A stretch of DNA of 64,000 nucleotides, from positions 1 through 64,000 of the forward strand of contig NZ_MTAV01000032.1 in the NCBI RefSeq assembly GCF_002154695.1. Direction: 5' to 3'. The stretch is from Nostoc sp. T09. GTDB lineage: Bacteria > Cyanobacteriota > Cyanobacteriia > Cyanobacteriales > Nostocaceae. Positions 43,718 through 58,936 of this stretch are shown one piece after another; positions within the stretch are counted from its first letter, which is position 1, and the number at the start of each line of letters is the position of its first letter. The position numbers were made by a program, and so were the translations under genes. The notes below the pieces were generated by a model. It was not told the origin of the DNA and did no database searches. It saw nothing but the letters and a program-made list of their open reading frames with translations.

Positions 43718-44860
43718 TTAATGACTAGTTGTACTCAGACGCAGCAAGCTTACATATTCTTGAAGTGATTGCTTGCTAATCTGCTCCCAGGAATATTTTT
43801 TTTCAACTAGATTTCTGGCAGCAGATCCTCTGATAGAAAGTTCCGAGCGCGCTACTAGGAGATTTTGCATACCTTTAGCGATCGCAACTGGGTTTGGTTC
43901 AACTGCCCATCCAGCCTTATTCACCGTCACCTCTTTGGCCATATTGGTACCAGGCGTTAATAGGCAAGGAATTCCATAAGACATCGCCTCTAAGACTGCC
44001 ATTGGATGTCCCTCAAAGCGCGAGGTATGGATAAATAAGTCGGCGCTTTGGAAAACAGCTTGTTTTTTATCTCCCCAAACTGGTTCTTTTAAATGAATAA
44101 GATCCTGAATTTGATAATTAATTATCAATTCTTCAAGTTTGGCCTTACTTCCCGCTATATCAGACCCATATAAAAGTATCTGAACATTATATTTTCTTAA
44201 ATTATCTTGGATAATTGCACAGGCTTCCAATAATAAATCTAAGCCTTTATGATGAATATCAAGTCTGCCCAAAAAGACAAACTTTAATTCTGGCTGAGTA
44301 CCAGGGTTTGCCAACATTTCATGTGCCGGGATATTGACACCATTTCCAACTACAAATGCTGGATGATTCCAAAGGTTTTTGACATCAACTGCTTCCTCTT
44401 CGCTTAAACAGTGTATTGCAGTTGAATTCTGCACCATCCAGTTAAAAAATAAAAAGTTACCTACCTTTTTCTTCATCTGCTTAACCTGCTGTGCCCCTTG
44501 CGTCATACCACCGTGAGGCTTAATTACATAGGAAATTTTCCTTTGAACAGCTTCATAGGCGAGGAGAATATGCTCCAAGATATAGGTACTATGAAAAACA
44601 ATCAGATCTGGCTTGTTCAAAGGTTCGGGCATTGATGCGATCGCCCGATAGCGCGGTAAATCCCGGATATAAACAACTGGATAGGGTTCAGACTTTTCGT
44701 ATCGTCCAATTGTAGAAGTAGTCACTAGCCCAGTTTGTACTCCTAAGCACTGTAGGGCTGCAACCGATGGAGGAATAGCAAATGTTAGCCCGGAAATCCG
44801 ATGATCTACAATCGGCGCAACGTGCAGGACTGTGATTGAATATCGCTTAGATGATGTCAT
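43718..44860 (-). CDS. Glycosyltransferase family 4
   Basis: The 380-residue GT-B enzyme starts MTSSKRYSITVLHVAPIV and shows YVIKPHGGMTQGAQQVKQMK, AIHCLSEEEAVDVKNLW, FVFLGRLDIHHKGLDLLLEA and the C-terminal HTSRFEGHPMAVLEAMSYGI with the EGxPxxxLEA motif of GT4. I chose ATG 44860: AAGGAGCAGGAAT precedes it, and it overlaps the flippase stop by 14 bases, which implies translational coupling. The frame is open to 44905. Substrates are unknown. Confidence 0.92.
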   Translation of the reverse strand: MTSSKRYSITVLHVAPIVDHRISGLTFAIPPSVAALQCLGVQTGLVTTSTIGRYEKSEPYPVVYIRDLPRYRAIASMPEPLNKPDLIVFHSTYILEHILLAYEAVQRKISYVIKPHGGMTQGAQQVKQMKKKVGNFLFFNWMVQNSTAIHCLSEEEAVDVKNLWNHPAFVVGNGVNIPAHEMLANPGTQPELKFVFLGRLDIHHKGLDLLLEACAIIQDNLRKYNVQILLYGSDIAGSKAKLEELIINYQIQDLIHLKEPVWGDKKQAVFQSADLFIHTSRFEGHPMAVLEAMSYGIPCLLTPGTNMAKEVTVNKAGWAVEPNPVAIAKGMQNLLVARSELSIRGSAARNLVEKKYSWEQISKQSLQEYVSLLRLSTTSH

Positions 44861-46148
44861 ATTCCTGCTCCTTATAAGGCCTGCTTTTAAGTTTGTGCAG
44901 TGCATACAAAATCACGCCTAAACTACCTCCTGCACTGAAAAGTGTTGCTATAATCAGGGCGATCGCTGCCCCATGCAATCCTCTTATTGGGATCAAAAAT
45001 AGGCAGGCTATAGCAGAGATAGTCGAAACCGCAGCCAACAAAGGCATTTGGATACGGAAGTACCTAGCTGCGGTCATTCCATAACTCAAGAAGGTTGATA
45101 TATAGTCAATCGTTGCCGCAATCATGAGCAACACAAATAAATCTGCATGTTGGGCATACTCAGGTTTGTAGAGGATAGTTAAAATTTCCTTGCCCCCAAC
45201 AACAGCTACTAAGATAACGATGACACCTTGCACAGCAGCGATCCCTACCAATTTTAAAAGAAGTTTGCGGAACGCTATACCATTTCCTTGGGCATAGTAT
45301 TTTGCCAGTCTTGGACTGCTTGACTCTGCTAACGCATTCACCACTATTTTTCCTCCTACCATCAAGTAAGCCAGTGCGGCAAAGATGCCTAGACTCCGTT
45401 CGTCTAAATACTGGGCGATAAAGTATCGAGGAATATTAGTGTTGAGCGAAACCAGCATCATCACAAATCCCAAAGGAAAACAGAGCCATGCTAGCTTCTT
45501 TACTGTTGCCAAATGCCATCGAGGTTGGAATGTAAATGCTCTATCTTCAACTTTTGACATTCGATTGAGTATTTCGGCACCGCTAGGAATGTCGTAGCTA
45601 ATTAGAACTACTAACCAAGCAAAAACTAACCCGATTACGCCCCATAAAAGGTTGCCTGTTATAAATACTCCTATGCCTAAAAGTAGCAGTGATAAAGGTC
45701 CTTTAATTATTAGTGATATTGCAATGCGATCCATTCGTTCGTGCTGCTGGATTAATCCATGAAATATGTCACTAATAGATTCACAAATCTTAGCTAACCC
45801 AACCAGGAAAATAACAACACAGGTTTCCCATCTATATTGAGATGTTAGAAGAATTATTGAAATCACTAAAAGGGCTAAAGCTGCCCCAATTATTCTTAGT
45901 GCTAAATAATCTCCAAAAAGATATTCTTTTTTCGCATCTGTTGCTTGCACAACTCGTAATTGCAAATTTGTCAACATGACTACAGGGGCTGTTACTGCCA
46001 ATCCCAAAGTAAACTGCCCTACCATTTCCGGTCTACCAAGTTTAGCTAAAACCACCAACATTCCCCACTGGCAAGCTACATAGACAGTATTACCAATGAA
46101 TGTCCAAGAAAAATTACGGCGTAGTGTTAGTGGCTTAATTTCTTGCAT
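44847..46148 (-). CDS. Polysaccharide flippase (Wzx-like, MOP superfamily)
   Basis: The 433 residues form about twelve transmembrane helices, with the N-terminal pattern LRRNFSWTFIGNTVYVACQWGMLVVLAKLG typical of Wzx/RfbX proteins. It moves the lipid-linked repeat unit across the inner membrane. It directly precedes, and overlaps, a glycosyltransferase gene and follows the dehydratase gene by 102 bases. Confidence 0.92.
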   Translation of the reverse strand: MQEIKPLTLRRNFSWTFIGNTVYVACQWGMLVVLAKLGRPEMVGQFTLGLAVTAPVVMLTNLQLRVVQATDAKKEYLFGDYLALRIIGAALALLVISIILLTSQYRWETCVVIFLVGLAKICESISDIFHGLIQQHERMDRIAISLIIKGPLSLLLLGIGVFITGNLLWGVIGLVFAWLVVLISYDIPSGAEILNRMSKVEDRAFTFQPRWHLATVKKLAWLCFPLGFVMMLVSLNTNIPRYFIAQYLDERSLGIFAALAYLMVGGKIVVNALAESSSPRLAKYYAQGNGIAFRKLLLKLVGIAAVQGVIVILVAVVGGKEILTILYKPEYAQHADLFVLLMIAATIDYISTFLSYGMTAARYFRIQMPLLAAVSTISAIACLFLIPIRGLHGAAIALIIATLFSAGGSLGVILYALHKLKSRPYKEQEYDII

Positions 46149-46250
46149 ATACCTTTGTTTGTTTGAATTTATTTGCCTGAAAAAGCAACTATTTGTGTTT
46201 CTAGCTCCAGTCCTTTTAACTAAGAAGGTTTTAATGCTATTTCTGAGAAT

Positions 46251-48296
46251 TTATGAACATCGTGGTTTTACTTTCGTCGACATATTGCCGTTGAAATTAC
46301 CTCGAATAGTACTATTTGTTAAAGCATCTGCTTTCAGATTTCTCTCTAAATCTTCAGCTTTATATCCAGCCACTATTTGTTTGAGCAACAACCGAATAGA
46401 ATGCACGTCATTGTTGGTTGCTGCTTGACACAAAGCCTCCACAGTAATTCCCAGATTTTCGGAAATTATTCCACTGGCATTTTTCACAACTAATAATTTT
46501 TTGTGTTCAGTCGGTTCGTATTCTTCTCCTTCAATAAACAGTTCCTCAAATAACTTCTCACCCGGCCGTAAACCTGTGAATACAATGGCAATGTCTTTGT
46601 GTACTTCATATCCAGAAAGGCGAATTAATTCTTTGGCTAAGTCAACAATTTTCACCGGCTGTCCCATATTCAGCATTAACACTTCACCAGCACGACCAAG
46701 CACCGCTGCTTGCAAAACAAGTTGTACTGCTTCCGGTATGGTCATGAAATAACGACAGATATCAGGGTGGGTAACTGTTATCGGCCCACCTGCGGCAATT
46801 TGTTTTTTGAAAGTGGGAACAACGCTTCCGCGACTGCCTAAAACATTGCCAAAACGCACGGCTACATAAAGCTTCCCACTTTCTCTTGCAGCTTGCAAAA
46901 CTAACATTTCAGCAACTCTTTTACTAGCCCCCATGACATTGGTAGGGTTAACTGCCTTGTCTGTAGATATCATCACGAAATGTTTGATATCGTATTGCTT
47001 TGCCAGTTCCAGCAAATTTTTTGTCCCTAATACATTGTTAGTGATTGCTTCTGCTGGATTTAATTCCATTAGAGGGACATGCTTATGAGCTGCGGCATGA
47101 AAAATCACATCGGGTTTGAATCGCTCAAAAGCATTTTCTAATCTAGACCGAAAGCGAATATCAGCAATGAAGGCGGAAATACGTGGGCTATTGAATTGTA
47201 CTTGGCTATCGTATTTGAGTACTTGGACAAGTTGTTCTAATTCCTGTTGGATATTGAAGACAGAATTTTCTCCATGTCCTATGAGTATCATTTCGGCAGG
47301 GCGATAGTTAAAAATTTGACGGCAAAGTTCGCTACCAATTGAACCACCTGCACCGGTAATGATGACTTTCTTCCCTGCAATAAATTGGGCAACTCTTTCA
47401 ATATCTGTCTGCACAGATTCACGTCTGAGCAAGTCCTCAATACGGACATCGCGAATGCTATCTACTCTTACACGACCATTGAGGATTTCATGTATACCAG
47501 GTAAAGTGCAGGTGTGAACTCCAGTGGCTTTGCAAATATCGACAATTTCCCTAATCACTCGTCCTGCAACTGTCGGCATCGCAATGATCACTTTTTGGAT
47601 CTGGAGAGATTGTACAACCTCAGGAATTTGGAAGCGATCGCCTACAACAGGAATCCCCCGAATGTGTACGTTCAATTTTTGAAGATCGTCGTCAATATAG
47701 GCTACAGGATAAAACCCTAGTTGAGGATTTCTTTGCATCTCTTGTACAAGAGAAACCCCTGCACTACCAGCACCAACTACCAACACCCGCTCGTTTTTGA
47801 AAAAAAATGCTTGTTTTTGGCTAGTTCTTTCTAGAGCTCGAACGCTGAAACGGAGTCCACCAATAAAAATAAAGGAAAGCAATCCGTCAATAAATGGTAG
47901 CGATTGTGGCAGTTTCTCTCTAGCCAAATGCGGTATATATTGAAGCACGTCAAACAAAAGGCTTTGGATGACTACCGCAGCCAACATTAGCATTGCTATA
48001 TACGTTAGTTCCTCAATACTGGCATAGCGCCAGTAACGTCTATAAAAACCAAGGCTCCAAAATAAAATTAGCTTGACTGCTAAAAAAAGTGTTGTTACAG
48101 TTCCTAGCTCTTTTATGTATGCGTTTAAAGAAAAATCGCCGTCTAAACGAATAATCAGAGCTAATAATGGTGTGATGGCAAATAAACCTATATCACACAC
48201 AAACAAATGTTTATTTCTCAGATGTAGCAATCCACACAGAAAAGTATTAGCAACTTTCTGCACTGCTGCGTAAAAAGTCAGGAGTAGGTAGTTCAT
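46251..48296 (-). CDS. Membrane nucleotide-sugar 4,6-dehydratase (WbpM/CapD/PglF type)
   Basis: The 681-residue protein has four N-terminal membrane helices, a first Rossmann-like domain (VLVVGAGSAGVSLVQEM), and the catalytic SDR domain with ITGAGGSIGSELCRQI (about 314), FHAAAHKHVPLME, ISTDKAVNPTNVMGASKRVAE (the Ser-Met-Lys arrangement of WbpM) and RFGNVLGSRGSVVPTF. It converts UDP-GlcNAc or a relative to a 4-keto-6-deoxy sugar, the usual substrate for DegT aminotransferases found downstream. It is the first gene of the cluster. Confidence 0.94.
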   Translation of the reverse strand: MNYLLLTFYAAVQKVANTFLCGLLHLRNKHLFVCDIGLFAITPLLALIIRLDGDFSLNAYIKELGTVTTLFLAVKLILFWSLGFYRRYWRYASIEELTYIAMLMLAAVVIQSLLFDVLQYIPHLAREKLPQSLPFIDGLLSFIFIGGLRFSVRALERTSQKQAFFFKNERVLVVGAGSAGVSLVQEMQRNPQLGFYPVAYIDDDLQKLNVHIRGIPVVGDRFQIPEVVQSLQIQKVIIAMPTVAGRVIREIVDICKATGVHTCTLPGIHEILNGRVRVDSIRDVRIEDLLRRESVQTDIERVAQFIAGKKVIITGAGGSIGSELCRQIFNYRPAEMILIGHGENSVFNIQQELEQLVQVLKYDSQVQFNSPRISAFIADIRFRSRLENAFERFKPDVIFHAAAHKHVPLMELNPAEAITNNVLGTKNLLELAKQYDIKHFVMISTDKAVNPTNVMGASKRVAEMLVLQAARESGKLYVAVRFGNVLGSRGSVVPTFKKQIAAGGPITVTHPDICRYFMTIPEAVQLVLQAAVLGRAGEVLMLNMGQPVKIVDLAKELIRLSGYEVHKDIAIVFTGLRPGEKLFEELFIEGEEYEPTEHKKLLVVKNASGIISENLGITVEALCQAATNNDVHSIRLLLKQIVAGYKAEDLERNLKADALTNSTIRGNFNGNMSTKVKPRCS

Positions 48297-50151: not shown

Positions 50152-51033
50152 TTAATTAATTCCCTTTCGTACCAATTCTGGAATTTGAGAAGGACGTTCG
50201 GCTACTGGAACTTGCGCTTCTTGGAAAGCAGCTAATTTATGTTGTGCTGTACCAAAGTTAGGATCGCGTCCGATAATCGTTGCTAAAGTACCCGTTTGAC
50301 GCCAATGTTTTCCTGGTGGCGCTTGTCTACCTGCAATGTAGGCAATTACTGGTTTATCAATTGCTTCAGCTATGTAGCGCGCCGCAGCTTCTTCACTACC
50401 ACCACCAGGTTGACCTACTAAGACGATCGCTTGTGTAGTTTCATCTTCATCGAGAATTTGCAACCATTGCAGAAATGACGATCCAACGATCGCATCACTG
50501 CCAATACTGACACTAATCGACTGTCCTAAACCAGCTTTGGTTAATTCCCAAGCAACTTCGTAGGTGAGTGTGCTACTGCGACTGACAATTCCTACTGAAC
50601 CAGGGGTATAAAATTCACTAGGGTGGGTGCCTAAGAGAATTTTGCCAGGTACAATGATTCCCGGACTGTTGGGCCCCACCACTAGGGTTTCAACGGACTC
50701 GGCTTTACGCAGTAATTGCACCATGTCCAAAGGAGGTACACCAGCAGAGATGATAATAATCTGGCGAATATTAGAGGCGATCGCTTCCAATGCTGCATCT
50801 AGTACATGGTAAGGGTTGACACAAATAATTGTCGTGTCAATTGGCCCAAATTGTCTTACTACCTCCTCAACCAGATCGAATACTGGAAGATCATATAGTT
50901 GTTGTCCACCAAATCCGGGATTTACACCAGCAACCAAATTAGTACCATAAGCTTTCATTTGGGTAATATGAGTTCCTGAGATAAATTCACTGAACCCTTG
51001 GATTAACACTTTACTGTCTGGCGTTAAGTTCAT
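50152..51033 (-). CDS. SucD-like CoA-binding protein (succinyl-CoA ligase alpha homologue, catalytic residues replaced)
   Basis: The 293 residues align along the whole length of succinyl-CoA synthetase alpha: VLIQGFSEFISGTHITQMKA, YGTNLVAGVNPGFGGQ, VGPNSPGIIVPGKILLG, GIVSRSSTLTYEVAWEL and YIAGRQAPPGKHW. The position of the phosphorylated histidine (E. coli H246, GHAGA) is Gln here (Q246 in RQTGT). The partner glutamate (E. coli E208, GEIGG) is also Gln (Q208 in GQPGG). The CoA-binding features remain. It lies downstream of a SucC-like gene on the same strand, 345 bases away. It may be inactive as a ligase, have another reaction or be regulatory. Confidence 0.85.
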   Translation of the reverse strand: MNLTPDSKVLIQGFSEFISGTHITQMKAYGTNLVAGVNPGFGGQQLYDLPVFDLVEEVVRQFGPIDTTIICVNPYHVLDAALEAIASNIRQIIIISAGVPPLDMVQLLRKAESVETLVVGPNSPGIIVPGKILLGTHPSEFYTPGSVGIVSRSSTLTYEVAWELTKAGLGQSISVSIGSDAIVGSSFLQWLQILDEDETTQAIVLVGQPGGGSEEAAARYIAEAIDKPVIAYIAGRQAPPGKHWRQTGTLATIIGRDPNFGTAQHKLAAFQEAQVPVAERPSQIPELVRKGIN

Positions 51034-51378
51034 AAAAAATTACGGTAAATTTGACATCCCAGCACCAGAAGTTACAGGGAAGAGATTGACACATAAATGG
51101 TGTCACATAATGCCATTTTGACTATAATTCACAACTATTGTCTTTAAAAACTGATTAAATCTAGCTCATCCTGAGAGGATGTTGAATAAGTATTACATAA
51201 CACATCAACTTATTGATGCTATCCCGGAATTACTTAATGAATTGGAGGAATGTATGTCTCTTTTTCAGACAAGGCTAAGACGGGGATCTATAAAGTTAAT
51301 ATGTTTAGACAAATACTTTTTAAACATCCTATTTGCTGTATTCATTGCAGCTATTTTTACATTCAGGGTGAACTGTTA
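51034..51378. other. Intergenic gap between the SucC-like and SucD-like genes
   Basis: A 70-codon plus-strand frame (51179-51391) has a hydrophobic C-terminal half but overlaps the SucC-like gene end and is not recognised. The 345-base gap is unusual for a sucCD pair, which is normally close-spaced. I see no clear terminator or hairpin. Confidence 0.35.
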
Positions 51379-52605
51379 TTACCTTTTATAAGCAGTTGAT
51401 TTGGCAAGACGGACTGATTCCGCCACCGCCTCATCTAAATTTTCTACTAATATCAGCGTATCGCCTTGGGTCGGAAGCGTAGCTAAATATTTTCTAGCTG
51501 TATTAAACTCAGAACCTGCAAGCCGAACAACCAAGCGGGGAAAACTGCTTTCACGCCGATGTTTGCTGCCATTAGTACGTACAGCTTGTGATTTAACGTC
51601 ACTTTTATCTTGTTGCAGAAATTTGCTCAGGATTTCAGCAAATTCGGCACATTCAGGAATGCTACCTAGGAGGTTCACTAATATTACTTGAATACTTTTG
51701 TCAGCAGCCAGAATTTTTAAACTCGTATCTAGGCGATCGCAGAATGTAGTCTCAGAAGTGTCACTCAAGAAAGCATGGCGCAGATTTAAGCAAAGACCAG
51801 GCTTACCACCACCATTGACAACTAAATCTAAAGTTGCCAATACCGAACCAGTACCATTACCGAGAATACCGATTTTACCGTGCATTTCTAAGCCATCCCA
51901 TTTAGACAAATGGCCGTTTGTTTCACTATGACTATGAGTCTTGACTAGTTTTGCTGCCATTTCGGCGATTTCTAAATGACGTCCAATTGCCCGTTCATTA
52001 ACCCTAACTTTACCATTGAGGGCCATCACTTGACCGGAGGCATTAACTGCAAGCGGATTAATTTCTACTAAGTCTAAGTCTTTTTGGATAAACAGCTGAT
52101 ACATCTTCTCGATAACATTGCTAATCGATTGCATCAGCACACCCTCTAAACCCAGTTTTAAAGCCAGCCGTCGGGCATAAAATGGAGAAAATTCCTGTTC
52201 CACAACAACATACTGCATTTTTTCTCCTGCCGATTCCCAATCAATATCTGCTTCCTTGCAACCTAAAAGTACTGGTCGGCAGACAGCGGTATCTAAAACC
52301 ACTGCTAAATATAATTCCTGCTTGGCATCATATTTTGATTCTGCCAGTAAAACTTCAGGTAACTCGCCCCAAATCGGCAAATTGAAGATCATTTGCGCGG
52401 AGGCGATCGCATCGATTGTTGTTTCGACAATCCTAACCCCACCAGCTTTTGCCCGTTCCGCTGCATGTACTTGAGATTTCAGTACAACTGGGTAGCGAAT
52501 TTTTAACCGCTTCAAATCCGTGGGATGGTCAATTCGTTGGGAGGGCAATACAGGAATGCCTATTTCTCCAAACCATTCTTTAACTTGGTACTCCAATAAA
52601 TCCAT
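51379..52605 (-). CDS. SucC-like ATP-grasp protein (succinyl-CoA ligase beta homologue, divergent)
   Basis: The 408-residue protein follows the beta subunit plan: MDLLEYQVKEWFGEIGIPVL, YPVVLKSQVHAAERAKAGGVRIVE, LDLVEINPLAVNASG and GKIGILGNGTGSVLATLDLV. The ATP-loop HAGGRGKAGG of active enzymes reads HAAERAKAGG. The glycine-rich DVGGGA loop is replaced (CLNLRHAFL) and NIFGGI reads NLLGSI. The metal-binding EINP is kept. It is the partner of the SucD-like protein. A serine/lysine-rich insert lies at about 335-355. Loss of key loops suggests altered chemistry. Confidence 0.85.
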   Translation of the reverse strand: MDLLEYQVKEWFGEIGIPVLPSQRIDHPTDLKRLKIRYPVVLKSQVHAAERAKAGGVRIVETTIDAIASAQMIFNLPIWGELPEVLLAESKYDAKQELYLAVVLDTAVCRPVLLGCKEADIDWESAGEKMQYVVVEQEFSPFYARRLALKLGLEGVLMQSISNVIEKMYQLFIQKDLDLVEINPLAVNASGQVMALNGKVRVNERAIGRHLEIAEMAAKLVKTHSHSETNGHLSKWDGLEMHGKIGILGNGTGSVLATLDLVVNGGGKPGLCLNLRHAFLSDTSETTFCDRLDTSLKILAADKSIQVILVNLLGSIPECAEFAEILSKFLQQDKSDVKSQAVRTNGSKHRRESSFPRLVVRLAGSEFNTARKYLATLPTQGDTLILVENLDEAVAESVRLAKSTAYKR

Positions 52606-53401
52606 TGATCCGCACCTGGTAGTGACACTTACTTATAAAGTATTTCTTTGAATATTGTCTTCAATCTTTCGTAGCATCCTAATTAAACAATCCAGCTTTA
52701 GACATCTATCAAAATTTATTTTTCAACGATCAATTTTATCGAACTCAGTAAATCAGGTAAATTAAATGTTCCAGAAATAATTGGCTGCATTGCAACAAGA
52801 CGTTATTAATCTCCTCAGTAAATTTCCCAGGATGTCAAGAAAAGACCATACTTATAAAAAACCTCAGTAATGTAGATTTATTTTTCTACAATTCCTAGTG
52901 TAGAGTGTGAAGCGCGATCGCGTAACGCATCACTCTCAATTATTGGTAGGTTTGGCTGGCGATCGGGCATCTGGCAAAATTCAAATTTGCGATTTTAGCT
53001 ACATTCTTAACATAAATCTTATTTGGTTTATTTGGAGATAATTTTGTCACTACTGTACTGCAAATACTGAAGAGAAGGACAGTAGCGCTTATGCATTTTA
53101 CGGTAGATGTAAAGCAGTGAAAATGCCTAAAAATTTTATTATTCCCATTTTTTAGGTGTGATTTCTACTTTAAGCAGGTTTGTCAAATAAGACTTGTAGA
53201 AGTTATCAAGTTGAGAGACGTGAATAATCTCTGCTCTCTTTATTTTTGCTGAAAAGTCAGAATTTGTGTTAGAAAGTTGGTCAATCTGATTATCTGGCTT
53301 TGGTTGGTTAAACTGTGCATCTGCAATCAACAAACGAAAGTTCTACCTTTCCTACCCTCGAAGATAAGAAAAACAATATAGAAGAACAGCGGGAACGCTC
53401 T
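52606..53401. other. Intergenic, no confident gene
   Basis: About 800 AT-rich bases between divergent genes, with a HIP1-rich patch near 52915-52965. A minus-strand frame at 53139-53333 (64 codons, TTG start) has a plausible composition but no recognisable family and overlaps possible upstream starts of the next gene. Promoters of both neighbours should lie here. Confidence 0.4.
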
Positions 53402-55498
53402 ATGACAGTAGCAGTTCAGCAGGAAGACTTACAGCTGTTAACCAAAACTTTGCAGGAACTATTCCTTGCTGAAGTTCCATCTGGCGGAGTCTTCCAAGTG
53501 AAGTGTGCCGTCAATAATGACGGACTAATGATTCTAATTCAACATCCAATGGGTTTGACAGTTGACACCCAATTACTCTTTCAAGTACTTGAGGATACAA
53601 TCCGGTCGGTACCAACCCAAGGAGAGCAAAATGTGCAATGCTTTCTGAGAGTATTTGGTGAAAAACGTCCTTATACCAAGCGTTCCCTCTATATCAATCA
53701 GAGGGTAGAAATGGATGAAATTAATCTCTACCCTACTCTACAAGCAACTGCCTTGGAAGAGTCTACAGATAATTCCTCTAGTAATAGGTTAATCTTCCCG
53801 CCATTCTCTCTGCCCATTTCAGCAGCTTCATCGCTTGATGAGACTGATTCACCATCTGCACAGAGCATCCCAGCAGCTTCATCGTTTGATGAGACTGATT
53901 CACCATTTGCGCGCCCTTTCTCAGCCGCTTCATTCGATGAGGCTGATTCACCATTCGCACAGAGCACCCCAGAAGCCTCATCGTTTGATGAAGCTGATTC
54001 ACCATTCGCGCGTTCTTTCTCAGCAGCTTCATTCGATGAGACTGATTCACCATTCGCACAGAACGTCTCAGCAACTTCATTCATAGATGAGGCTGATTCA
54101 TCATTCGCGCGTCCTACCTCAGCTGCTTCATCAATCGATGAGACTGGGCACGAAGCACCATTCGATCCTTTTGCTGGCACACCAGATTTATTAATTTCTA
54201 AGCGAGCAAAACCAATCAAACCAATTTTGTTAGGTGCAGCTTGTGTAGGAATTGTCGTGTTAGCTGGCGGAGCTTACTTGCTGACTAGTCCTTGCGTAAT
54301 TTCGCAGTGTAAAGAAATACAAACTGCCGAGCAATTAAAAACGGAATCTAGACGATTAATGCGCCATGCCAAATCTGAAAAAGAATTAGCAGCGGTACAA
54401 CAGCAACTAGAAGCATCAAGCTCAGACTTAGAAAAGATTCCCTCTTGGTCTCCCCAATACCAAAAAGCTGAGGAACTACAAGCAAGTTTATCTGGGTCGT
54501 CAGAAAAAATCGCTCAGGTGGTAAAAGCTTTGCAAGCAGCATCCTTGGCGATGAGTAAAACTAAAACGCCCACTAATAGCCTAGAGGAATTGCAAGCTAG
54601 ACAGAAACTTTGGCGAAGGGCGATCGCACCATTAGAAGCGATCGGTTCCAATAGCGAATTGTACAATCTGGCGCAAGTGAAATTACTGAGTTATCGTGTC
54701 GGCTTGAAAACTGTTAATCAGCAATTGCTAGGGGCAGAAAAATGGTTGAAAAAACTCAACGCTGCTCAGGCTGTAGCTAATGCAGCCGTCCAGCAAGAGA
54801 CAATGATTCAATCCTTGCGTGACTTACAAAAGGTGCAGTCTACTTGGCAGGTGGCAGTTAATGCATTAAATATCATTCCCCAGACTAGCTCAGTATACCA
54901 ACAAGCACAAACACTCTTAGGAGAATATAAACCAAAACTAGCAGCAGCACGCGATCGCGCTACTAAAGAACAATTAGCTGCCAAAACTTACCAACAGGCT
55001 ATTAGCACAGCCAACCAAGCCAAGGCATTTGAGCAAAAGCAACAATGGCAGCCAGCCGTACTTCAATGGGAACGGGCTTTGCAGTCTGCTAAACAAATTT
55101 CTGATGATAGCTTTCAATATCGCCTGGCTCAAACTCTGATTGAACCCTACTCTGCTGCCCTGAAACAAGCACAAGCAAAGCTAGAAATGGCTAATAGTTT
55201 GCAACAAACCCGCACTGATCTAAATAAACTTTGTACTAATGGAATGCGGATTTGTAGTTTTACTATAGATAATCGCGGAATTACTGTGCAGTTAACCCGT
55301 GAATATGACCTAGCACGGCAAAGTACAAGTACTTCAGCTAATGCTAATCCTCCAAAATCAAATGTAATTGCTGATGGAAATCAACACTTGCAAATGTTAC
55401 AGCAAGCGCTGGGAGTAATTAGCGACAATGCTCAACTGTCTTTGTCTATTTATGATTCTCAAGGCAAACCAGTATATACGCGATCGCTGGAAGGGTAA
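53402..55498 (+). CDS. Repeat-containing single-pass membrane protein of unknown function
   Basis: I do not recognise the family. The N-terminal ~110 residues form a soluble domain (TVAVQQEDLQLLTKTLQELF, FLRVFGEKRPYTKRSLYINQ). A low-complexity region follows with seven tandem 16-18-residue units of the type AASSFDETDSPFAQS. One membrane helix comes next (PILLGAACVGIVVLAGGAYLL), then about 330 residues rich in Ala/Gln coiled coil, with LQARQKLWRRAIAPLEAIGS- and LRDLQKVQSTWQVAVNALN-like internal repeats. The C-terminus ends SIYDSQGKPVYTRSLEG. I chose ATG 53402; a GTG at 53315 would add 29 residues. Confidence 0.75.
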   Translation: MTVAVQQEDLQLLTKTLQELFLAEVPSGGVFQVKCAVNNDGLMILIQHPMGLTVDTQLLFQVLEDTIRSVPTQGEQNVQCFLRVFGEKRPYTKRSLYINQRVEMDEINLYPTLQATALEESTDNSSSNRLIFPPFSLPISAASSLDETDSPSAQSIPAASSFDETDSPFARPFSAASFDEADSPFAQSTPEASSFDEADSPFARSFSAASFDETDSPFAQNVSATSFIDEADSSFARPTSAASSIDETGHEAPFDPFAGTPDLLISKRAKPIKPILLGAACVGIVVLAGGAYLLTSPCVISQCKEIQTAEQLKTESRRLMRHAKSEKELAAVQQQLEASSSDLEKIPSWSPQYQKAEELQASLSGSSEKIAQVVKALQAASLAMSKTKTPTNSLEELQARQKLWRRAIAPLEAIGSNSELYNLAQVKLLSYRVGLKTVNQQLLGAEKWLKKLNAAQAVANAAVQQETMIQSLRDLQKVQSTWQVAVNALNIIPQTSSVYQQAQTLLGEYKPKLAAARDRATKEQLAAKTYQQAISTANQAKAFEQKQQWQPAVLQWERALQSAKQISDDSFQYRLAQTLIEPYSAALKQAQAKLEMANSLQQTRTDLNKLCTNGMRICSFTIDNRGITVQLTREYDLARQSTSTSANANPPKSNVIADGNQHLQMLQQALGVISDNAQLSLSIYDSQGKPVYTRSLEG
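53819..54150. repeat. Seven-unit tandem repeat within the coding region
   Basis: Units of 48-54 bp, each with TTCGATGARRCTGATTCACC and CATTYGCRC segments, alternate between short and long versions. They encode Ser/Ala/Asp-rich linkers. The regularity also leaves antisense frames open on the minus strand, which I regard as artefacts. Confidence 0.75.
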
Positions 55499-56602: not shown

Positions 56603-58936
56603 TCACACAACTATCCGCCATATTTTAATTGTTTGATCGGAACTACCAGTGGCAAGGAATTTACCATCTGCACTTAAAGCAATAGAATTAACTTGCTCTG
56701 AATGCCCCGTAAGTGTATGCAGCAGTTCGCCTGTAGAAATACGCCACATCTTGATGGTTTTGTCAGCACTACCACTCCAAAGTATTTCTCCATCTGGGTT
56801 AACTGCGATGGATTTCACCTCATCTGAATGTCCAGCCAGGGTATCTAGCAGTTTACCTGTGATCAGATGCCAAATTTTGATGGTTGTATCAGCGCTACCG
56901 CTAAAGAGAATTTTGCCATCAGGACTTATGGCCAGAGATTTGATCCCGCTACTATGACCGATGAGTGTGCGTAATGGATCGCCAGTGCGTGGATTCCACA
57001 GCCTGATTTTACTATCAGAACTTCCACTGGCGAGCATTGTGCCATCGGGACTGATAGCAGCAGTATCGACTGCGGATGAATGCCAAAGGGTACAAATGCG
57101 ATCGCCTTTATGCAAATGCCAAATCTTGATTTTATGACTGCCACTGGCGAGAAGTTGGCCATCTGGGCTGATGACTACAAAGTTAACAGGTTTTTGATGC
57201 CCCAACAGTGTATGCAGTAGTTTACCTGTTTTTAAATGCCAGACCTTGACATTACTTTTAGGATGTTGATAGCTACCGACGGCGAGGTAATTACCATCAG
57301 GACTCACAGCTACAGAAGAAATTTCTCCTAAATTCTCTGTGAGTGTACGGATAAGTTTGCCTGTATGCAGATTCCATACTTTGATAGTTTTGTCTGCACT
57401 ACCGCTAACTAACATTTCTCCATCCGGTGCAATAGCTACAGATGATACATTGCCTAAATGTCCGGTGAGGGTATGACAGAGAGTTGCAGATTCTGGGCTA
57501 GGTTGTTGGTTGAGATTGGCGATCGCCTGTAACATAGTTTCAACCTCAAGAATACTTTGGCGATCGTCAACAACTGTGAAATACTCCTTTAACTTGGTAA
57601 GATATTCCCGATCTTCTATTCTGAGTGCAGATTGCATTGCCTTTAAAGGATTATTTACCTCTTGTAGTGAGACTTGGTGCAGTTGCAACCATGTATTGAT
57701 AGAATAGTCAACCTGTTCCTTTGCCCAAGAGCGATCGCTTAAATAAGATAAACTCACAGCTAATTGCAAAGCTAACTCTGGAATCCAGTAACGTCGCTCC
57801 TGTTCTAGGGCTTGATAAACTTGTTGATAACCTGTAACTATTACTTGTACTGATTGTAAATCTAAATTATCGTCAAGCAAACTCATCAGTAACTCCGGTA
57901 ATAGTGGAGGAACATCATGATGAATTAGGTGATAAATATCCGCCACCCAGCTAGTAATCAGACGGTGACAGTTAATCAAGACTTGGCAAAGTCTTTCAAA
58001 ATCCTGATGATTAATTTCATATTCTAGGGATAACTTATTAATATCAATACCTTGATTTTGCCATTTTTCTGCTTTTTCTAAGATTGCTAAATTTCTCACA
58101 TTATCTTTACCTATACTATTAACTTCGTCTAAATCTTCTCCTAGCGATAACAATTCATCTCTAATTTTTCTCCATTCTAAAGCTCGACTTTTAGCAGAAT
58201 TTTCTAATATCGCTTTGTAAGGTAATCTCGATATAGTTTGATAGTAATAATTTCCTTGCCCCAATCCCCAATAAGCAATACGGAAATTTAGATAATCTCC
58301 ATCATGCTCTGATTCTAAAATTAAAATAGGCTCTGTTTTTAACATACTAAACAGAGCCTTAATGCTAGATTCGCTATGAAAACGTTTGCTATCCCATGCG
58401 CCTGCTAAAAATTCTGTTGGTCTGACTGAATTGTGGAGCGAGTAGTGCTTGTTAATAAACTCTCGTAACCCTTCAGATAACATTAACTCAATTTCTGGAT
58501 TTACTTGATTTTTATTAACAAATCTGTCATATTCCAGTTGTGGAGGGGCGATAAAAATTTTTAGTGGGATACGTCCATAATTAATGTAAGACTCTAAAAT
58601 TTGGGAAGGATATAATCTTAACGGCCAGTTTTCTAGAATTTTGTGAACTTCTGGTAACTTGAGTGCTGTTTCTCTCTCTTTTTGAGTTATTTCTAATAAA
58701 GTCTGATGTTGATAAACAGCTAATTGATGTTGTAGGCGTTTTTCTTGTGTCAATCCTACTTCATAGTTAAAATTTGAAGTAGCAATACTTAAAGATTGAT
58801 CTGATTCGGCAATTGTTAGGGGAATTTCGTACTTAGTTGCATTTAAGCTTTCCTCCATCCGTTTTTGGATGAAAGATGCAATCACAGGTGCAAACTCTAT
58901 TACTAACTGTATGAGTAGTCTTATTCCTTGCTCCAT
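56603..58936 (-). CDS. WD40-repeat protein with long N-terminal helical region
   Basis: The 777-residue protein ends in seven WD40 units (from about residue 490: GHLGNVSSVAIAPDGEMLVS, KTIKVWNLHTGK and repeats), enough for one propeller. The N-terminal ~480 residues are mostly helical: an amphipathic start (MEQGIRLLIQLVIEFAPVIA), a coiled-coil-like part with VGLTQEKRLQHQLAVYQHQ, and a region with no nucleotide-binding motif I can identify. WD40 proteins of filamentous cyanobacteria are often linked to signalling or defence switches. The partner is unknown; a PD-(D/E)XK-like gene follows. Confidence 0.85.
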   Translation of the reverse strand: MEQGIRLLIQLVIEFAPVIASFIQKRMEESLNATKYEIPLTIAESDQSLSIATSNFNYEVGLTQEKRLQHQLAVYQHQTLLEITQKERETALKLPEVHKILENWPLRLYPSQILESYINYGRIPLKIFIAPPQLEYDRFVNKNQVNPEIELMLSEGLREFINKHYSLHNSVRPTEFLAGAWDSKRFHSESSIKALFSMLKTEPILILESEHDGDYLNFRIAYWGLGQGNYYYQTISRLPYKAILENSAKSRALEWRKIRDELLSLGEDLDEVNSIGKDNVRNLAILEKAEKWQNQGIDINKLSLEYEINHQDFERLCQVLINCHRLITSWVADIYHLIHHDVPPLLPELLMSLLDDNLDLQSVQVIVTGYQQVYQALEQERRYWIPELALQLAVSLSYLSDRSWAKEQVDYSINTWLQLHQVSLQEVNNPLKAMQSALRIEDREYLTKLKEYFTVVDDRQSILEVETMLQAIANLNQQPSPESATLCHTLTGHLGNVSSVAIAPDGEMLVSGSADKTIKVWNLHTGKLIRTLTENLGEISSVAVSPDGNYLAVGSYQHPKSNVKVWHLKTGKLLHTLLGHQKPVNFVVISPDGQLLASGSHKIKIWHLHKGDRICTLWHSSAVDTAAISPDGTMLASGSSDSKIRLWNPRTGDPLRTLIGHSSGIKSLAISPDGKILFSGSADTTIKIWHLITGKLLDTLAGHSDEVKSIAVNPDGEILWSGSADKTIKMWRISTGELLHTLTGHSEQVNSIALSADGKFLATGSSDQTIKIWRIVV

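Follow-up and report, generated by a model that had tools for sequence, protein, structure and literature searches.

A SucCD-like gene pair of Nostoc sp. T09 from a cyanobacterial family in which catalytic residues of succinyl-CoA synthetase are replaced: a candidate pseudoenzyme

The stretch of DNA analysed here, hereafter the window, comprises 64,000 nucleotides of Nostoc sp. T09 (contig NZ_MTAV01000032.1, positions 1 to 64,000) and carries two genes whose products resemble the beta (SucC) and alpha (SucD) subunits of succinyl-CoA synthetase (SCS), with sucC placed before sucD on the same strand (Table 1). The coordinates of both reading frames, their lengths and the size of the spacer agree with an earlier note made from the letters of this DNA; the note had also called the spacer unusual, which did not hold, as the gap in 72 pairs of the family described below has a median of 187.5 bp and ranges from -4 to 2647 bp. 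The Pfam domains CoA_binding, Ligase_CoA and ATP-grasp_2 are distributed over the pair, and the best NCBIfam models are those of SucD and SucC. Both proteins score well below the curated cut-offs (alpha, 282.9 bits against 353.2 and 280.2 against 336; beta, 188.4 against 375.55 and 198.7 against 370), a weak test given that two cyanobacterial alphas retaining Glu208 and His246 (E/H) also fell below them, and that at L077, a locus from another class of the phylum, the beta lies just under the cut-off and the alpha above it.

Table 1. Features of the SucCD-like locus in the window. Family, loci of the bacterial family to which the window belongs; E/H loci, those with Glu208 and His246 in alpha.
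Feature	Position	Strand	Remarks
SucD-like alpha	50152..51033	-	293 aa; one alpha match in own genome
Q246 codon, alpha	50296..50298	-	faces E. coli phosphohistidine H246
Q208 codon, alpha	50410..50412	-	faces E. coli catalytic E208; Gln in 75/75 family loci
sucC-sucD spacer	51034..51378		345 bp
SucC-like beta	51379..52605	-	408 aa; one beta match in own genome
R276 codon, beta	51778..51780	-	Arg in 72/72 family loci; Gly in 49/52 E/H loci
N197 codon, beta	52015..52017	-	faces E. coli D213; Asn in 72/72 family loci, Asp in 52/52 E/H loci
E181 codon, beta	52063..52065	-	faces E. coli E197; retained, Glu in 72/72 family loci
Divergent neighbour gene	53315..55498	+	727 aa; beside sucC in 36/47 family loci with room

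The divergent neighbour encodes a protein with Ser/Asp-rich repeats that belongs to no Pfam family and likely has one membrane span and a coiled coil. Counting loci with room for it (a flank of at least 2.5 kb), the gene also stands beside sucC in 13 of 46 other loci lacking His246, 4 of 59 E/H loci, none of 6 intermediates and none of 17 added loci, and in a set of 45 family loci no other neighbour reaches a majority (33/45). Some match to the protein was obtained in 58 of 68 searched genomes, a few of these matches being very weak. As a candidate partner of SucCD it was set aside: the tree offers only 4-5 independent contrasts, which show nothing, and therefore no link between the two is claimed. 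Elsewhere in the window, a glycosyltransferase-like reading frame (43718-44905), a Polysacc_synt flippase-like protein (44847-46148) and a Polysacc_synt_2 protein (46251-48296) occupy approximately positions 43718-48296, which looks like part of an exopolysaccharide cluster, and a 777-aa protein with apparent WD40-like repeats at its C-terminus is encoded on the reverse strand at 56603-58936.

Alignment with solved SucD chains bears out the two glutamines that the earlier note had read in the alpha subunit, with Q208 opposite E208 and Q246 opposite H246 of E. coli SucD. AlphaFold2 (AF2) gave a confident SCS alpha fold (pLDDT 88.2, pTM 0.86) whose top PDB matches are the SCS of Thermus (TM 0.91) and of E. 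coli (TM 0.90), and pLDDT drops below 50 only at residues 242-255, the former phosphohistidine loop. The alpha has F41 at the K42 position and a histidine at 243. Its scores against the FdrA model NF004760 (39.4 bits, cut-off 433) and against TIGR02717, the alpha of ADP-forming acetate-CoA ligase (66.6 bits, cut-off 567.15), lie far below the respective cut-offs.

As the earlier note had described, the beta subunit has an altered ATP loop (HAAERAKAGG, against HAGGRGKAGG in E. coli), lacks GGGA and keeps EINP. Nevertheless, the pair is not otherwise intact, as that note had supposed: E197, N199 and D213 of the E. coli beta align with E181, N183 and N197 of the window, and the LDGK motif that includes D213 reads LNGK, a change overlooked in the first reading. 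N199 and D213 (E. coli numbering), which we take to be Mg ligands, are not jointly retained, since D213 is replaced and only the N199 position is Asn, in the window as in 61 of 72 family loci. With E181 kept throughout the family and N183 in most of its members, nucleotide binding could persist. The AF2 model of the beta is mediocre (pLDDT 79.5, pTM 0.54), with an SCS beta as its top structural match.

The bacterial family of the window, presumably Nostocaceae, was represented by 75 loci from 55 genera, drawn from 78 genomes with a full-length match (G103, G149 and G155 were left out). Residue states were counted after removal of nine identical alphas (205 reduced to 196), and a comparison of 81 alpha columns, made before that removal, took in 63 E/H loci. 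A sucC gene lies near sucD in 72 of the 75 loci; the other three have none in the retrieved stretch, two of them with flanks of just 1.5 kb, and three family betas are truncated by locus ends. The conservation check suggested in the earlier note gave Q208 in 75/75 and Q246 in 71/75 loci, the remainder having Lys (2), Asn (1) or Thr (1) at 246, and none His. Among the 81 alpha columns conserved in the E/H relatives, 75 are kept in the family, and the six that are mostly replaced are 58, 88, 208, 245, 246 and 247. In the beta, T62 replaces Asn in 72/72 loci and S254 replaces Leu in 71/72; across these 72 loci Ala or Glu mostly stands in place of G52 in the ATP loop and Cys mostly in place of S116, G119 and G120 are mostly replaced, and 11 loci have His or Ser at the N183 position. 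The derived residues are encoded by a variety of synonymous codons (five different ones for R276), a sign that selection acts on the residue itself.

The alpha reading frame is uninterrupted in 75/75 family loci. Comparison of the window with its three most similar loci (L092, L093 and L124) gave dN/dS values of 0.050-0.065 (alpha) and 0.103-0.112 (beta). The family medians, 0.096 for alpha (949 pairs) and 0.128 for beta (165 pairs), lie close to those of the E/H loci (0.077, 26 pairs, and 0.126, 18 pairs) and are lower than the medians of the remaining His-less loci (0.112, 20 pairs, and 0.141, 21 pairs). Loss of catalytic residues in a protein under purifying selection, a mark of pseudoenzymes, is found here. 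A shifted phosphohistidine was considered and ruled out: H243 occurs in 32 of the 75 family loci, and 34 have no histidine at all in alpha residues 238-258.

Among 60 family genomes, 59 have one full-length copy of SucD, in no case above the curated cut-off, and in a control set 10 of 14 genomes have a SucD match, all 10 above it. No canonical SucD paralogue was found in the genome of the window (8.25 Mb, 270 contigs) or in the 60 family genomes. The single genome without SucD, G395, has only a weak match of a second type; such weak second matches, present in 25 of the 59 SucD-bearing genomes, are nearly all reading frames of approximately 785-961 aa (one of 349 aa) and look like acetate-CoA ligases.

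Part of the divergence from textbook SCS extends beyond the family. The missing GGGA loop is real here and not special to this pair: the motif occurs in 0/72 family betas, in 0/47 E/H cyanobacterial betas and in none of the 176 betas outside the phylum's other classes, where 15 of 17 have it. The loop QG[FIY]TG..G and K42 of alpha are presumably CoA-binding elements. The loop motif is found in 17 of 19 other-class alphas and in none of the remaining 197, among them the 75 of the family and the 54 E/H alphas of the window's class; K42 is Lys in 19/19 other-class alphas and is replaced in at least 42 of the 54 E/H loci of the window's class, and among the 75 family loci 67 have C, F, S or Y there. 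Since the E/H cyanobacteria also lack GGGA and the CoA-loop motif, this departure is not confined to the window's family. With loop and K42 both gone, the CoA- or acyl-CoA-binding complex offered as one possibility in the earlier note is weakened and is not favoured here. E97 of alpha is Glu in 19/19 other-class loci, 34/54 E/H loci, 6/61 other His-less loci and 0/75 family loci; we take it to correspond to human E105, and E105 is mutated in solved structures among the structural matches of the alpha model.

Regarding the history of the loss, a tree of 90 alphas groups the 40 included family loci in one clade (100/99), next to which branch the two loci of the nearest related family, f3 (L042 and L043), both retaining E208 and H246, and also D213 in beta. 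In a second tree of 163 alphas, computed without columns 207, 208 and 245-247, the His state needs five changes, four of them forced by well-supported branches; this was a quick tree with long branches, in which 22 of the 75 family loci were represented. Outside the family, the named loci are the best 80 of 364 matches to a query derived from ten His-less sequences; frequencies of residue states outside the family are therefore not phylum frequencies. At the 61 His-less loci outside the family, position 246 is Asp in 42 and Asn in 14. These include Picosynechococcus sp. PCC 7117 (L132, R208/D246), with two more loci of that genus that also encode R/D, as well as Crocosphaera, Microcystis, Hydrococcus and diatom endosymbionts, and L075 (Q208/D246), a Synechocystis-type locus that matches exactly both published qPCR primers for sucD of Synechocystis 6803. 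The named E/H loci include Leptolyngbya, Kamptonema, Planktothrix and Myxacorys. Seven loci (L143, L183, L165, L172, L192, L203 and L189) have lost E208, with Ser, Lys or Gln in its place, and keep H246; they are perhaps intermediates, or the first step, of His loss. All 19 loci from other classes of the phylum, presumably non-photosynthetic, are E/H. A SucD match is absent in 58 of 386 genomes of the phylum, and many more have only weak matches that perhaps are not SucD. Two further groups deserve mention as side observations: in L156, L174 and L201, from Rhopalodia and Epithemia endosymbionts, an R/D SucD persists in chromosomes of 2.8-3.1 Mb; and L091 and L214-L218 are SucD-like proteins that lack the histidine and have diverged strongly. 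The f8 family type accounts for five or six of these loci, and their retrieved flanks showed no sucC.

The other His-less lineages differ from the window's family in what they have kept. Their betas retain D197 and N183 (48/48 each), and residues 153-158 of their alphas, which we take to be the start of the 'power helix', are mostly changed (among 61 alphas, S153 is kept in 12, T155 in 6 and Y158 in 19). The family, in contrast, keeps S153, T155 and Y158 in 75/75 loci and T157 in 74/75, and has lost D213 in beta; judging by these residues, the catalytic relay is dismantled from different ends in the two groups.

There is a long-standing dispute over the second half of the TCA cycle in cyanobacteria. 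In the accessible parts of the cyanobacterial literature, SucCD is handled as an enzyme (e.g., PMC5160925; PMC7133116) and described as the probable succinate/succinyl-CoA enzyme of the TCA cycle (PMC7133116); in the accessible parts of the open-access papers listed on cyanobacterial SucCD, no mention of the missing SucD histidine was found. The available text of PMC5160925 states that 2-oxoglutarate dehydrogenase is absent from all cyanobacteria. Methylmalonyl-CoA mutase, another source of succinyl-CoA, was discarded as a supply: 67 of 68 genomes gave no match and one gave a partial match, with a match in 8 of 14 control genomes. With both enzymes missing, the demand for the classical SCS reaction is probably low. 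According to the same partly available source, growth of sucCD deletion strains of Synechococcus 7002 was not possible with 2% CO2 sparging, and the sucCD single mutant contained approximately 60% of the wild-type succinate and malate (approximately 40% in the dark), a drop taken by its authors as support for enzymatic succinyl-CoA conversion; in a quadruple mutant that also lacked sucCD, succinate is given as 2.0-fold up in the results and as 'similar' to wild type in the discussion (PMC5160925). Should strain 7002, itself outside our locus set, share the R/D form found at all three distinct loci sampled from its genus, the deletion phenotype would be that of a His-less pair. Such a phenotype would be expected of a pair with a regulatory or scaffold role, and another reaction could also produce it.

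How, then, is the pair to be read? That alpha E208, alpha H246 and beta D213 have been lost in the window's family is, as a matter of sequence, nearly certain, and the pair very probably has no succinyl-CoA synthetase activity; with defining catalytic features gone, it should not be filed as SCS despite descent and fold. An error of sequencing or assembly can practically be dismissed. The earlier note would have given up its reading had orthologues with Glu and His been joined by such an error here; orthologues of that kind do exist in f3, but the same-genus genomes L092 and L093 are both Q/Q, which rules out a sequencing error, and Gln208 is shared by each of the other 74 family loci. A working SCS whose phosphate carrier has been relocated or become dispensable would explain the retained fold and pairing and the retained E181 (E197 in E. 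coli), and H243 would offer the window a substitute; yet that histidine is shared by fewer than half of the family loci, beta D213 is gone, and a paper of 2002, by its title, reportedly found Glu208 of alpha and Glu197 of beta crucial for phosphorylation of the active-site histidine, which makes this explanation highly improbable. Nor do we give much credit to decay in progress, in which genes would be eroding in organisms that, having no 2-oxoglutarate dehydrogenase, need little succinyl-CoA. Repeated losses of the histidine, losses of Glu208 alone, the SucD-less genomes of the phylum (and G395 within the family), divergent members of other lineages without many of the conserved residues, and an alpha dN/dS slightly above that of the E/H loci would all agree with it; against it stand dN/dS values of approximately 0.1, open alpha frames, absence from just 1 of 60 family genomes and the invariance of the derived residues. 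The earlier note's preference for a conserved non-canonical function over decay is therefore upheld, by residues fixed in 55 genera, dN/dS of approximately 0.1 and no second copy.

More weight, although we still regard it as unlikely, falls on reuse of the scaffold by a new enzyme whose chemistry would do without a phosphohistidine, such as a transfer of the kind served by FdrA/AllF in oxamate transcarbamylase. A new catalytic activity would account for the purifying selection just as well, and the derived residues are fixed as strictly as active-site residues. Intact D197 and N183 in the other His-less betas suggest that ATP chemistry may persist in those lineages, and a precedent is provided by FdrA, a transcarbamylase component with a Pfam domain of the CoA-ligase type (PMC11326118, as far as its text is available). 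In the family, however, D213 is invariably Asn and N183 is at times His or Ser, the FdrA model scores the window's alpha at less than a tenth of its cut-off, and the sole majority neighbour is a gene without a Pfam family. On balance, a non-catalytic binding or regulatory role appears rather more plausible than a new reaction, and our main reading, to which we assign a probability of roughly 0.6, is that SCS has, throughout this lineage, given rise to a non-catalytic pair kept for such a role. With E208, H246 and D213 replaced by Gln, Gln and Asn, and with fold, pairing and purifying selection retained, the complex would be unable to pass phosphate from ATP via His246 to make or use succinyl-CoA; it would be maintained to bind a small ligand, a partner protein or both, and may modulate central carbon or C/N metabolism. 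A more specific version, which we put forward only tentatively, is that SucCD of photosynthetic cyanobacteria ceased to be an SCS in steps, with the CoA loop, K42 and the GGGA phosphate loop lost first and the phosphohistidine afterwards, several times independently, and that the pair of the window's family became a sensor or scaffold of central carbon metabolism that needs neither Mg nor phosphate, E208Q, H246Q and D213N turning all three acid or phosphate-handling residues into amides. If this version is true, metabolic models of these strains include a SucCD step that the cells do not carry out.

Judging by sequence, the protein of the whole family, like that of the Synechocystis- and Picosynechococcus-type loci, lacks the residue on which the known SCS mechanism depends; the published sucCD knock-out phenotype (PMC5160925) thus merits a second look, and SucCD becomes an example of a core enzyme that has probably turned into a pseudoenzyme several times in parallel.

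Compared with known systems, the window's pair shows full-length homology to the SucCD of SCS (TIGR01019/TIGR01016; E. coli 1JKJ, Thermus 3UFX), with an alpha fold at TM 0.90-0.91, sucC followed by sucD on one strand and EINP kept; it differs by the absence of the phosphohistidine, E208, beta D213, GGGA, the canonical CoA loop and K42, and by scores below the curated cut-offs. The E/H cyanobacterial SucCD constitute the same pair and likewise lack GGGA and the CoA-loop motif, but they keep E208, H246 and D213, which the window does not. Other His-less SucD (Synechocystis-type, Picosynechococcus, Crocosphaera, Microcystis) have also lost His246, and usually Glu208, while mostly remaining paired; unlike the window's, they represent separate losses on the tree, with His mostly replaced by Asp or Asn and with beta D197 and N183 intact. 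Finally, FdrA/AllF, which unlike the window's alpha has 555 aa and works with AllG and AllH, is likewise a SucD-related protein that serves another reaction, that of oxamate transcarbamylase, according to the available text of PMC11326118.
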